Assembly: GCA_002938035.1 (NCBI GenBank)
Contig: PTLH01000009.1
Location: 1 to 34,966, forward strand
DNA length: 34,966 bases
Source: Alphaproteobacteria bacterium MarineAlpha3_Bin6
Lineage (GTDB): Bacteria; Pseudomonadota; Alphaproteobacteria; Rhodospirillales; UBA2165
Reading direction: 5' to 3'
This document shows positions 1 to 3,837 of the stretch, one piece after another; positions within the stretch are counted from its first letter, which is position 1; each line of letters begins with the position of its first letter. Under the pieces are notes generated by a model that was not told where the DNA came from, did no database searches, and worked only from the letters and a program-made list of their open reading frames with translations. The translations under genes and the position numbers were made by a program.

Positions 1-120
1 ATCGAAGTAGAAATTAAAGGTGCTGTTCCTTCTATCGCGGCGGTTTTGGATGTCACCGACCATGCCGGTGGTGACAATCCTTATTACTCCCCTGGAAAAG
101 GTGGTCCCGCGCCATATTAA
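1..120 (+). CDS. NifU/NfuA-like Fe-S cluster protein, C-terminal end (5' truncated)
   Basis: Frame 1 is open from the first base and stops with TAA at 118-120, giving the last 39 residues of a protein that begins upstream of the window. The tail has a run of the form DVTDH-x5-NPYY near the end. It resembles the C-terminus of NfuA/NifU-domain proteins, for example the DLTEH...SYY ending I recall for E. coli NfuA. Those proteins carry or transfer a 4Fe-4S cluster to client apoproteins in the cytoplasm. The CxxC cluster ligands of the family would lie upstream and cannot be checked here. After the NPYY-like motif there is a short Gly/Pro-rich extension. The identification rests on this short tail only. 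The next gene starts 34 bases downstream on the same strand, and radical SAM enzymes need Fe-S clusters, but that link is only suggestive. Confidence 0.65.
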   Translation: MEVEIKGAVPSIAAVLDVTDHAGGDNPYYSPGKGGPAPY

Positions 121-154
121 AACAGTCTAACCGGCCTACAATCTAGACGGTATC

Positions 155-1555
155 ATGAGGGTTCTACTCCTTTCCACGTATGACCTTGGACATCAACCAT
201 TTGCCCTGGCTTCGTTGTCTGCGGCTGTATCTAAAGATGGGGCAGAAGTCATTTGTAATGACTTGGCAGTGGAACCTTTAAAAGAGGAGGCAGTAAAAAA
301 CTCATCACTGATCGCCCTCCACCTTGCCATGCATACCGCCACCCGTTTGGCACTCCAACTCCTTCCTCGATTAAGAATATTAAATCCAAATGCTCATATA
401 TGTTTTTTTGGACTATATGCTCCAATGTTAGGGAATATCTTAGTTGAAGAGAGAAATATGTCGTTTATTGGTGGTGAGTTCGAAACAGCCGTCAAGAAAC
501 TTTGTTATAAGCTAAACGGTTCCCACTTTTTTAACGCGCACGAGCGGAACGTCACAATTATAGGAAAATATCGCTTCCAAGTACCTGATCGTACCAAGCT
601 TCCAACATTAGACAATTATGCTTATCTAGAAGAAGCGAATGGTGATCGAAAGATTACGGGTTACACTGAGGCTAGTCGGGGCTGTAAACATGTCTGCCTT
701 CATTGCCCAGTTGTCCCTGTATACGGTGGTCGATTTTTTATCGTTCCTGTAGATATAGTGATGAAAGATATACGACAGTTAGTTGAAGCAGGCGCGGAAC
801 ATATCAGTTTTGGTGATCCCGACTTTTTTAATGGACCCAAACATGCGTTAGATATAATCGCAAAGTTACACGTTGAGTTTCCGCATCTCGGCTACGACGT
901 GATAATAAAGGTTGAACACCTTCTAAAGCATCAGCAATTGCTTGCCGTTTTAAAGAATACAGGCTGTAGGTTTATCACCACAGCGGTTGAATCTGTTGAC
1001 GACCATGTCCTCTTAAAATTGGAAAAAGGGCATAGCACTGCTGATTTCTCCGAAGTAGTCGAAATCACTAAACGCTTGGATTTACATTTATCTCCAACTT
1101 TTATCCCTTTTACGCCATGGTCTACGGTCCAAAATTATCAGTACCTTCTTAAAACTATTATGAACCTTGGACTAATAGATAATGTTGCTTCCGTGCAACT
1201 AAGCATCCGCCTTTTAATCCCATTGGGATCCCGCTTATTAGAGCTGGAAGAGATCAAAGCACGCGCTCCACAATTTGACCAAGAGGCACTAAGTTATCCT
1301 TGGCAATTCAGTGATCCTCAAATGGAAACTTTGGCAAATAATGTAAGACAAATTGTTGAGGAAGGAGAACAGCGTAGCAAAACAAGACGGGAAATATTTA
1401 TGGAGCTCTGGGAGGCTTCTAACAATGCCCAAGAACCGGCTACCGGGCCATCAAAAACTTTAAACTTGTCGCTAGATTACACAGACATACCAAAAATGAG
1501 TGAGGCATGGTATTGCTGCGCAGAGCCTACGCGTTTTCAGGCCGAACAGATTTAA
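155..1555 (+). CDS. B12-binding-type radical SAM protein with C-terminal CCAEP tail
   Basis: A 466-residue protein. Residues 1-130 look like a cobalamin-binding-type Rossmann domain (hydrophobic first strand, then STYDLGHQP), though the classical DxHxxG cobalamin ligand motif is not evident. Residues 165-400 form the radical SAM core, with the cluster motif CxxxCxxC at Cys177, Cys181 and Cys184. GDPDFF at 220-225 resembles the glycine-rich SAM-binding strand of B12-rSAM proteins. The protein ends in a Cys454-Cys455-Ala-Glu-Pro segment, 9 residues before the final residue. I recall a family annotated as CUAEP/CCAEP-tail radical SAM (seleno)proteins; this is the all-cysteine form, since both codons read TGC. 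The ATG at 155 has only a weak upstream GACGG. The stop is 9 bases before an ATP-grasp gene, so the two are very probably one operon. The substrate is unknown. The enzyme class is certain; family membership is likely. Confidence 0.85.
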   Translation: MRVLLLSTYDLGHQPFALASLSAAVSKDGAEVICNDLAVEPLKEEAVKNSSLIALHLAMHTATRLALQLLPRLRILNPNAHICFFGLYAPMLGNILVEERNMSFIGGEFETAVKKLCYKLNGSHFFNAHERNVTIIGKYRFQVPDRTKLPTLDNYAYLEEANGDRKITGYTEASRGCKHVCLHCPVVPVYGGRFFIVPVDIVMKDIRQLVEAGAEHISFGDPDFFNGPKHALDIIAKLHVEFPHLGYDVIIKVEHLLKHQQLLAVLKNTGCRFITTAVESVDDHVLLKLEKGHSTADFSEVVEITKRLDLHLSPTFIPFTPWSTVQNYQYLLKTIMNLGLIDNVASVQLSIRLLIPLGSRLLELEEIKARAPQFDQEALSYPWQFSDPQMETLANNVRQIVEEGEQRSKTRREIFMELWEASNNAQEPATGPSKTLNLSLDYTDIPKMSEAWYCCAEPTRFQAEQI

Positions 1556-1564
1556 ATACAAATC

Positions 1565-2785
1565 ATGGCGCGCCTACTTCTGTTAATACCCACTACTTCA
1601 TACCGGGTAAAAGACTTTATGAATGCTGCTCATAAATCCAGTGTAAATGTAACGATTGGATCCGATGAAGAAAGTGTATTAAACACTTTCCAATCTAGCG
1701 GGATACTCCAACTGAAATTCGATGACTTAAACGAAAGTATTGAAAAAATTAAAACCTTTCATAAAAGTTACCCTATCAATTCTATCATTGGAGTTGAGGA
1801 GCAGACATGTTTTCTTGCTGTAAAAGCTTTGGAGAAATTAGGTCTGCCACACAACTCAATTGGATCAATAAAAGCCTCTATCAACAAATACCTGTTCCGA
1901 AACACCCTAAAAAAGAACGGCTTACCTAATCCAAATTTTCAGTGTCTAAAACCGAACCACGATATTAGGACACTTGCAAACTCCACTGATTATCCCTGCG
2001 TTTTAAAGCCAGTAAATCGTTCTGCAAGTCAAGGTGTAATACGGGCTAATGATCCTCGAGAATTCGTAGCCGCCTATCAGCGCATCGCCTCTCTGGTTTC
2101 TGGTGAAGATATTATCGTTGAAGATTTTCTCCCGGGTCAGGAAGTGGCATTGGAAGGGCTTCTGACAGATGGAGAACTCAAAACGTTGGCTATTTTCGAC
2201 AAGCCAGAACCCCTGGATGGACCCTATTTTGAGGAAACGATTTACGTCACCCCGTCTCAACATCCCATAGTAATCCAAGATAGACTCCATCAAATTGTAC
2301 AACAAGCGGCGAACGCTCTTGGTCTTACGGAAGGCCCTGTTCATGCTGAATTACGAATACGCGATCAGGAATCCACGGTTAACGAACAAGGGCCTTGGCT
2401 AATCGAATTGGCAGCCCGCTCAATTGGAGGTCTATGTTCGCGCAGCCTAATGTTTGAAGGTGGGCGCTCGCTCGAGGAATTGATCATTTCTCACGCTCTC
2501 AAAGAACCCATCGGTTGCGTAAATCGAGAAAAATTGGCTTCGGGTGTTATGATGATTCCAATCCCAAAAGCTGGGATTTTAAAAAGTGTTGAAGGCGACA
2601 TCGACGCGAGAGCATTAAAACACGTTAAAGATTTGCAGATTTCCATTAAAATCGGACAAAAGTTAACTCCCTTGCCCGAAGGAAAACAATACCTCGGATT
2701 TATTTTCGCTAAGGCTGAAAGCCCACTAGAAGTTCAAGCTTCCCTTAGGGCAGCCCACTCTCGTCTACGATTTAAGATCGATTAA
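1565..2785 (+). CDS. ATP-grasp domain ligase paired with the radical SAM protein
   Basis: A 406-residue protein with an ATP-grasp layout. It has an N-terminal preATP-grasp domain (about 1-115). ATP-binding strands follow, including YPCVLKPVNRSASQGV near 143-158 and DIIVEDFLPGQEVALEG near 182-198. The C-terminal metal site is ELAARSIGG near 280-288, the usual E-x-N/A-x-R-x-G region. ATP-grasp enzymes activate a carboxylate as an acyl phosphate and couple it to an amine, thiol or other nucleophile. The closest general look is of the carnosine synthase or PurK-like amino-acid ligases, but I cannot name a substrate. It starts 9 bases after the radical SAM gene. Its 3' end overlaps the convergent threonine aldolase gene by 4 bases, so no separate terminator fits there. 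Together with its partner it suggests modification and ligation of a small amino-acid-like molecule; this is inference from context. Confidence 0.85.
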   Translation: MARLLLLIPTTSYRVKDFMNAAHKSSVNVTIGSDEESVLNTFQSSGILQLKFDDLNESIEKIKTFHKSYPINSIIGVEEQTCFLAVKALEKLGLPHNSIGSIKASINKYLFRNTLKKNGLPNPNFQCLKPNHDIRTLANSTDYPCVLKPVNRSASQGVIRANDPREFVAAYQRIASLVSGEDIIVEDFLPGQEVALEGLLTDGELKTLAIFDKPEPLDGPYFEETIYVTPSQHPIVIQDRLHQIVQQAANALGLTEGPVHAELRIRDQESTVNEQGPWLIELAARSIGGLCSRSLMFEGGRSLEELIISHALKEPIGCVNREKLASGVMMIPIPKAGILKSVEGDIDARALKHVKDLQISIKIGQKLTPLPEGKQYLGFIFAKAESPLEVQASLRAAHSRLRFKID

Positions 2786-3837
2786 CTGGTATTTCTTACC
2801 AATATTTGACCAATTGCATCAGCCGCTTCGATAACACTTTTCCGATCAACGTCCATATGAGTAACAGCACGGACACTATTCTCTCCCGTTACGTTTATGC
2901 GAATTCCTTGATCTAGAAGAGAAGAGGATAACTGAACAGCATTTATGTTCAACGTGTTGACCGTAAAAAATATTATATTGGTCTCAATATTCTCTGATTT
3001 AAGCTCAATGCCATCAATTTGAGACAGTCGCTCGACAAAAACTTGAGCATTCTCATGGTCTTCAGCTAATCGAGACACGTTGTTTTTAAGAGCAAATATT
3101 CCCGCCGCCGCCATCATACCGGATTGTCGCATAGCGCCTCCAAGACGTTGCTTCCAAAACCACGCTTCTTCAATGAATGCACGCGTTCCAGTTAGTACGC
3201 CACCGATAGGACACCCCAGCCCTTTTGATAAATCAATCCATGCGGTATCCGTGCAAGAGGCATAATCTTTGGCAGAAATACCAGAGGCGACGACCGCATT
3301 CATTAGTCTAGCCCCATCCATATGGACAATTAAATCACTATTACGGGCAATATCTTTAATGGAATTAAGCATTTCCAATGTCCATACGCTGCCTCCACCT
3401 AAATTCGAAGTCTGCTCTACTACTACAACCCTAGACTTTGGTGAATGGCGAAGAGGCGGACGAAGCGCATCCTCTACCTGCGAAGCAGCAAATATTCCAT
3501 TTTTTCCTTCAATAGGCCGTATCATGGCACCGGCTATTGCAGACGCACCTCCCACTTCAAAATTAAAGATATGAGAGGTTTCATCAGCTATTATTTCATC
3601 CCCTGGATTGCAATGAACTGCGAGAGCAATCTGATTACACATTGTACCAGAAGGTAGAAACAGAGCTTTTTCGTGTCCCAACAGATCAGCCACAATTTCA
3701 CATAAGCTGATCGTCGTAGGATCTTCATCAGCTTGCTCATCACCAACCTCCGCGGCACACATGGCTTTGCGCATTTCCATCGAAGGGCGGGTTTTAGTGT
3801 CACTGAACAAATCTATACGTGGCGGATTATGTGCCAT
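2782..3837 (-). CDS. ltaE: Low-specificity L-threonine aldolase
   Basis: A 351-residue fold-type I PLP enzyme that splits L-threonine or allo-threonine into glycine and acetaldehyde. The N-terminus carries the family signature FSDTKTRPS (11-19) and VGDEQADEDPT (31-41). The PLP site includes HMDGARL (172-178), with Asp174 expected to contact the pyridine nitrogen. Lys205 in DLSKGLGCPIGG is the expected Schiff-base lysine. Length is normal for the family (about 340-350). The ATG at 3837 is preceded by GAGGA at a spacing of 6 bases, supporting this start. It runs against the ATP-grasp gene, overlapping its stop by 4 bases. A 13-base tandem repeat lies 78-142 bases upstream of the start, in the place where its promoter or leader should be. 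Very similar beta-eliminating or beta-hydroxyaspartate aldolases cannot be excluded from sequence alone. Confidence 0.9.
   Translation of the reverse strand: MAHNPPRIDLFSDTKTRPSMEMRKAMCAAEVGDEQADEDPTTISLCEIVADLLGHEKALFLPSGTMCNQIALAVHCNPGDEIIADETSHIFNFEVGGASAIAGAMIRPIEGKNGIFAASQVEDALRPPLRHSPKSRVVVVEQTSNLGGGSVWTLEMLNSIKDIARNSDLIVHMDGARLMNAVVASGISAKDYASCTDTAWIDLSKGLGCPIGGVLTGTRAFIEEAWFWKQRLGGAMRQSGMMAAAGIFALKNNVSRLAEDHENAQVFVERLSQIDGIELKSENIETNIIFFTVNTLNINAVQLSSSLLDQGIRINVTGENSVRAVTHMDVDRKSVIEAADAIGQILVRNTS

Follow-up and report, generated by a model that had tools for sequence, protein, structure and literature searches.

A CCAEP-tail radical SAM protein and a co-inherited amino-acid ligase as a candidate two-step pathway linked to iron-sulfur genes

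What do two adjacent genes, one for a radical S-adenosylmethionine (SAM) protein and one for an ATP-grasp ligase, make together, and for what use? We examined such a pair in a stretch of 34,966 nucleotides (hereafter the window) that represents positions 1 to 34,966 of contig PTLH01000009.1 from Alphaproteobacteria bacterium MarineAlpha3_Bin6 (assembly GCA_002938035.1). An initial annotation had read the pair as possibly a compact undescribed pathway, in which a B12-binding-type radical SAM protein makes a small modified amino acid or peptide and the ligase conjugates it, and had found nothing among the neighbouring genes that pointed to a substrate. The two open reading frames (ORFs) lie where it placed them, at positions 155-1555 and 1565-2785, and are separated by 9 bases. 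We observed that the two genes are co-inherited across genomes and that the ligase is linked to genes for iron-sulfur (Fe-S) and iron-trafficking proteins.

Co-inheritance of the two genes

The initial annotation had named co-occurrence among homologues as a way to check the pair, and by this measure the two genes belong together. We compared 80 relatives of the radical SAM gene, the best-scoring of at least 549 matching stretches, a sampling that favours the window's type. The ligase gene lies within 2 kb of the radical SAM gene in 46 of the 80, in several phyla, and in 2 further relatives it is truncated at contig ends. Where no adjacent ligase was present, 24 of 31 genomes hold one close homologue elsewhere (240-413 bits). 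The distance matrices of the two proteins are strongly correlated (Mantel r 0.84; the best of 2000 permutations reached 0.15). Among 289 alphaproteobacterial genomes, the radical SAM gene occurs in 9, a close ligase homologue in 10 and both in 9, so that the ligase is found in 9/9 genomes with the radical SAM gene and in 1/280 without it (p = 3e-16); three genomes (G016, G187 and G281) carry both genes as non-neighbours. These data support, with high confidence, the assignment of the two genes to one pathway. That they are chance neighbours with unrelated functions might be read from their separation in many relatives; this co-occurrence, including that in the unlinked genomes, refutes it, and we give it practically no credence.

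Both genes are under purifying selection relative to the nearest relative, a Rhodospirillales isolate (L018) whose radical SAM protein is 88% identical (dN/dS, the ratio of nonsynonymous to synonymous substitution rates, 0.25 for the radical SAM gene and 0.16 for the ligase gene). Genes in unannotated contigs were called by a simple script, and many of the source genomes are metagenome bins, at least two of which look misbinned. Contigs assigned to Dehalococcoidia (L033) and Nitrospira (L041) carry alphaproteobacterial versions of the cassette and are probably misbinned.

The second gene of the pair (1565-2785, forward strand; 406 aa, ATG start) matches the Pfam domains ATP-grasp_4 (99.5 bits) and LAL_C2 (56.6 bits) over their cut-offs, in agreement with its annotation as an ATP-grasp ligase. 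It has these domains in common with the L-amino acid ligases BL00235, BacD and DdaF, and its nearest solved structure is that of BL00235 (3vot, E 5e-33). From this architecture, the protein is predicted to be a ligase that forms dipeptides from free amino acids. It differs from those L-amino acid ligases in its ties to radical SAM and Fe-S genes and in an invariant cysteine, Cys291 (positions 2435-2437, forward strand), in an RxIGGxC loop. This residue is present in 47/47 radical-SAM-linked ligases; the corresponding position is Val in BL00235 and Ile in two ligases linked to the arsenic enzyme ArsL (L100 and L102). We considered whether Cys291 might mark a metal(loid) substrate and rejected it as diagnostic because distant, unlinked ATP-grasp proteins carry a similar cysteine.

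Both enzyme superfamilies also occur in the biosynthesis of ribosomally synthesized and post-translationally modified peptides (RiPPs), and the radical SAM protein weakly resembles rSAM_ocin_1 (19 bits). Even so, it is very improbable that the pair matures a ribosomal precursor peptide of the RiPP or graspetide type: the ligase has the LAL_C2 architecture of free-amino-acid enzymes and not that of the graspetide type, the two genes are often unlinked, and no recurrent small ORF was found beside the pair among clustered neighbours of at least 70 aa. No description of the pair, or of CUAEP/CCAEP, was found in the literature searched. The pair is real and widespread and, within that literature, undescribed, with component enzymes from known superfamilies. 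The proposal of an undescribed pathway stands in this sense and has to be qualified in another, as the radical SAM family had already been named, as NF040546 in NCBIfam, before this analysis; it is uncharacterised.

Linkage of the ligase to iron-sulfur and iron-trafficking genes

The initial annotation had noted a NifU-like neighbour, and positions 1-117 (forward strand) indeed encode the C-terminal end of an Nfu/NifU-type Fe-S carrier, cut by the contig edge. Contrary to its view that the neighbours are uninformative, this gene is informative because the ligase is found with Fe-S and iron-trafficking genes in a range of phyla. A gene for Nfu, an A-type carrier or YggX, families that we confirmed by Pfam, lies within 2.5 kb at 52 of 69 ligase loci, compared to 3 of 31 radical SAM loci without the ligase (p = 5e-10). 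This linkage spans Alpha- and Gammaproteobacteria, Acidobacteriota and Chloroflexota, and the partner varies. In four alphaproteobacteria (G016, G187, G281 and G007), the ligase gene adjoins nfu and the radical SAM gene is elsewhere or was not found. The gammaproteobacterial ligase gene adjoins that of an A-type carrier, usually together with yggX (L167, L169, L171, L179 and L091). In Acidobacteriota the ligase and YggX genes stand tail-to-tail, and in Chloroflexota the ligase gene lies beside that of YggX (L168) or of an A-type/NifU fusion (L181).

The window begins at the edge of its contig (C169) in a 2.2-Mb, 89%-complete genome. Its start overlaps the end of another contig of the same genome, C127, over 291 bases at 96% identity (window 1-291, G000:C127:15178-15468). 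This second contig holds a complete Nfu gene of 287 aa, with an Nfu_N and two NifU domains by Pfam. The break is probably an assembly split of strain variants, the window continuing upstream on C127, which gives the gene order nfu - radical SAM - ATP-grasp. Nfu is a conserved upstream partner in alphaproteobacteria. We considered a dedicated Nfu paralogue and rejected it, since most of these alphaproteobacteria have no NifU protein other than Nfu. A double-domain Nfu also occurs in alphaproteobacteria in which the radical SAM and ligase genes were not found (G041, G104, G120, G168, G184, G210, G265 and others).

Small metabolites offer a functional parallel. Glutathione synthetase, too, is an ATP-grasp enzyme. 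Glutathione and bacillithiol are genetically linked to Nfu, A-type carriers and YggX: the functions of bacillithiol overlap with those of Nfu and SufA, and for the labile iron pool the same holds of yggX and gshA (PMC8593673). This overlap between low-molecular-weight thiols and the same proteins suggests that the product of the pathway may be a small molecule that binds iron or Fe-S clusters. We found no homologous biosynthetic enzyme here, and the analogy is one of function only.

Downstream, the gene that the initial annotation called a threonine aldolase (2782-3837, reverse strand) encodes a pyridoxal-phosphate-dependent aldolase of the GntG family (347 bits). The gene is on the opposite strand, converging on the ligase gene with a 4 bp overlap. 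This neighbour recurs in close Rhodospirillales relatives only.

The radical SAM protein and its Cys-Cys tail

The first gene of the pair (155-1555, forward strand; 466 aa, ATG start) is a member of NF040546, the family of CUAEP/CCAEP-tail radical SAM (seleno)proteins, which it matches at 583.5 bits (cut-off 500) and with which it agrees in tail and motif. Both features noted in the initial annotation are present and invariant in 48/48 aligned sequences. The [4Fe-4S]/SAM motif CxxxCxxC spans residues 177-184 (positions 683-706, forward strand), with cysteines at 177, 181 and 184 in RGCKHVCLHC, and the CCAEP tail spans residues 454-458 (positions 1514-1528, forward strand) within WYCCAEP; E450 and W452 are likewise constant, together with C454, C455, A456, E457 and P458.

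The runner-up family is ArsL (NF040542), the radical SAM enzyme of synthesis of the arsenic antibiotic arsinothricin, at 275 bits, under its cut-off of 450, and the remaining radical SAM families score at most 41 bits. By this comparison ArsL is the closest family of characterised function. ArsL proteins encoded on plasmids align to residues 1-404 with 30-33% identity; the RGCxHxCxxC motifs coincide, and the tail Cys-Cys is placed over the Cys-Cys of the ArsL motif RCCLKC. The two also resemble each other in that an ATP-grasp gene stands at some ArsL loci. Unlike ArsL, the window protein has a long linker before the tail, selenocysteine (Sec) variants among its relatives and a different ligase subfamily with which it is co-inherited, and no ars operon was found. 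ArsM, ArsB, ArsQ, ArsN and ArsH had no match near any of the 80 relatives, and ArsC lies 2.9 kb from the radical SAM gene in L055 only. The arsinothricin pathway proper was dropped on the ArsL score and the lack of ars genes alongside. ArsL expressed in E. coli converts arsenite to hydroxyarsinothricin, with a 3-amino-3-carboxypropyl (ACP) group that is taken to come from SAM (PMC8552651), and its formation of the ACP-arsenic bond is restated in PMC12159101. By analogy, we consider with moderate confidence that the window protein may carry out ArsL-like ACP chemistry.

The B12 assignment fared less well. No Pfam B12-binding domain was detected in the radical SAM protein even at E <= 5, although the fold is of that architecture: the AlphaFold model (AF2; predicted local distance difference test (pLDDT) 89.9) is closest in the PDB to AprD4 (6fd2; template modelling score 0.67-0.69), followed by OxsB, TsrM and MgmA. 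A cobalamin methylase was accordingly dropped as a candidate. Of the proposal that the pair makes and conjugates a small amino acid, the functional unit is upheld by co-occurrence and the cobalamin dependence is not.

Ahead of the tail, residues 425-446 (positions 1427-1492, forward strand) form a hypervariable linker of low confidence. The alignment is gapped and variable over about these residues, and model pLDDT falls below 50 at 429-432, with blocks of 53-77 across, before the tail regains 84-87. In the model, a variable linker that tethers a constant tail has the anatomy of a tethered arm.

In-frame stop codons interrupt the tail in 13 of the 80 relatives, the window gene having none, and TGA is the codon at 15/15 of these stops (p = 7e-8 for random stops). 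TGA occupies the second tail position in 7 loci and in an annotated Thermomicrobium gene (CU), the first position in 4 (UC) and both in 2 (UU); the family name covers CU and CC, and UC and UU are found here in addition. We compared the sequence past the TGA in 12 of these loci and in Thermomicrobium, and in 13/13 genes a stem-loop with a small loop, resembling a selenocysteine insertion sequence (SECIS), starts about 16 bases downstream; folding energy in this region differs from that of Cys-tail genes (p = 6e-6). SelB is over cut-off in 13/13 Sec-tail genomes, compared to 9/14 Cys-tail genomes. At the level of sequence, the family includes selenoproteins with Sec at a conserved Cys, and the TGA-only stops, hairpins and SelB together indicate that both tail residues are very probably functional thiols or selenols. 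The double-Sec tail UUAEP, in the Chloroflexi L056 and L095, goes beyond the CU form of the family name. In Anaerolineae, the UCAEP radical SAM gene is immediately preceded by a cation diffusion facilitator (CDF) efflux gene (L040:8968-9957, L063, L085 and L088).

Vicinal Cys/Sec arms serve as redox or metal hand-off centres in thioredoxin reductase and MerA. This would suit an ordinary product without ACP, formed by 5'-deoxyadenosyl radical chemistry or cobalamin-type methylation of an amino acid, with the tail as a redox or cluster-repair arm. The fold class is shared with AprD4, OxsB and TsrM, and Fe-S repair genes nearby would fit a radical SAM enzyme that damages itself. We regard this as improbable, given that the B12-binding domain was not found and that ArsL scores far above any methylase or dehydratase family (275 versus at most 41 bits). 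Moreover, when the two genes are separated, the Fe-S genes stay with the ligase and not with the radical SAM gene.

Organometal contexts and the proposed pathway

A further alternative is an organometal(loid) peptide, in which the radical SAM protein would attach ACP to As(III) or Hg(II) bound at the tail, and the ligase would go on to form a dipeptide resembling arsinothricin, either to detoxify or to serve as a weapon. It draws on ArsL as the nearest characterised relative, on the ATP-grasp ligases of arsinothricin loci and on relatives whose radical SAM gene lies near MerB-like lyases or HgcAB-like fusions. MerB-like proteins are encoded near CCAEP radical SAM genes at L052:15727-16656, L057:162-947, L079:9562-9918, L080:15884-17089 and L087:1334-2521, the last together with a divergent ligase, and of 10 MerB copies, 6 are no more than 10 kb from the radical SAM gene (expected 0.04). 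The L079 copy and a second L052 copy look degenerate at the catalytic motif. HgcAB-like fusions over cut-off occur in L051 and L062 only, among 47 genomes searched. There, a CUAEP radical SAM gene, a DUF169 gene, a methyltransferase gene and the fusion form an operon (L051:9643-13903 and L062:8761-13042), which in L062 stands beside nonribosomal peptide synthetase genes; L051 also has a MerTP-like gene.

Judged by sequence context, the same Cys/Sec tail probably serves metal-carbon chemistry in this side branch, which favours a soft element at the tail. The context of the side branch is not directly transferable to the window pair because the side branch excludes the ligase. A minority of CCAEP/CUAEP radical SAM genes stand in contexts of the selenocysteine-assisted organometallic (SAO), MerB or HgcAB-like kind, beside MerB-like, SaoD-like or HgcAB-like genes. 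The window locus has none of these genes, and almost every genome with such a context is without the ligase. It is missing in 6/7 cases from the MerB/HgcAB group, so that this context is one of a divergent subgroup. Neither arsM, arsB, arsQ nor mer genes adjoin window-type loci, where MerB- and SaoL-like lyases are likewise absent, and the ligase follows Fe-S genes instead; MerB was not found in the window's own genome, in a search whose control was weak. We initially favoured organometal chemistry on account of the MerB/HgcAB neighbours and demoted it since those genomes lack the ligase, and now hold it doubtful.

ArsL loci themselves bear on the role of the ligase. In Priestia, Alicyclobacillus, two Pantoea species and Klebsiella, these loci have an ATP-grasp gene beside arsM or ars regulators, and plasmid ArsL-type loci with ATP-grasp genes include L100:635-1858, L101:436-1668, L102:5461-6777, L141:6709-7773 and L142:6572-7777. 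This suggests that arsinothricin in those strains may be made as a peptide.

In the explanation that we prefer, a dedicated pathway of two steps has these two genes as its core. The Cys/Sec pair would hold a soft element, X, on which the radical SAM protein would build an unusual amino acid derived from SAM; the ligase would activate this amino acid and couple it to another amino acid or an amine, yielding a small peptide-like metabolite. Such a 2-amino-4-X-butanoate would resemble methionine, a substrate of BL00235, whose products include Met-Gly and Met-Met (PMC6920838). In iron or Fe-S cluster handling, the metabolite would then be a partner of Nfu, A-type carriers and YggX, much the part that glutathione or bacillithiol play elsewhere. 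For the pair itself, the most economical reading is still that the radical SAM protein makes an amino acid and the ligase joins it. The explanation as a whole, including the Fe-S role, is tentative, somewhat short of an even chance.

Several findings weigh against it. ACP transfer is predicted from ArsL at about 30% identity, and the window protein ends in WYCCAEP and lacks the RCCLKC tail of ArsL. Organometal-type neighbours occur in 6 of the 7 genomes in which the ligase was not found (L051, L052, L057, L062, L079, L080 and L096), and the ATP-grasp proteins linked to ArsL, which we considered as the closest kin of the window ligase, are not so. No Fe-S or iron gene of the above families lies near 17 of the 69 ligase loci. 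Many acidobacterial loci are close kin and not independent, so that the independent contexts number a handful, six to eight by our estimate, rather than 52. In alphaproteobacteria, housekeeping synteny may by itself explain the linkage to Nfu, since most of them have no other NifU protein.

On the other side, recurrence with different carriers in other phyla is a stronger argument than the alphaproteobacterial linkage, and we have good confidence that the pathway is tied to iron-sulfur or iron handling. As the ArsL-locus ligases are not the nearest kin of the window ligase, an ArsL-type enzyme seems to have acquired an amino-acid ligase as partner on more than one occasion, which favours an unusual amino acid that is then built into a peptide. 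Our confidence in the identity of the product is low. A new and widespread metabolite, in the form of an ACP-derived, peptide-linked amino acid whose side chain arises on a Cys/Sec-bound soft element and that serves iron and Fe-S trafficking with Nfu, A-type carriers and YggX, is a specific possibility that we consider rather unlikely.

The NF040546 family name makes no mention of the ligase and Fe-S gene partners, and the explanation, if true, would offer a role open to testing for a family so far known by nothing but its tail. Cys/Sec interchange at both positions makes the catalytic role of this tail directly testable. The rare ACP-radical chemistry of ArsL would extend beyond arsenic, and marine alphaproteobacteria, soil Acidobacteriota, Gammaproteobacteria and Chloroflexota would share an overlooked biosynthetic step of bacterial Fe-S housekeeping.

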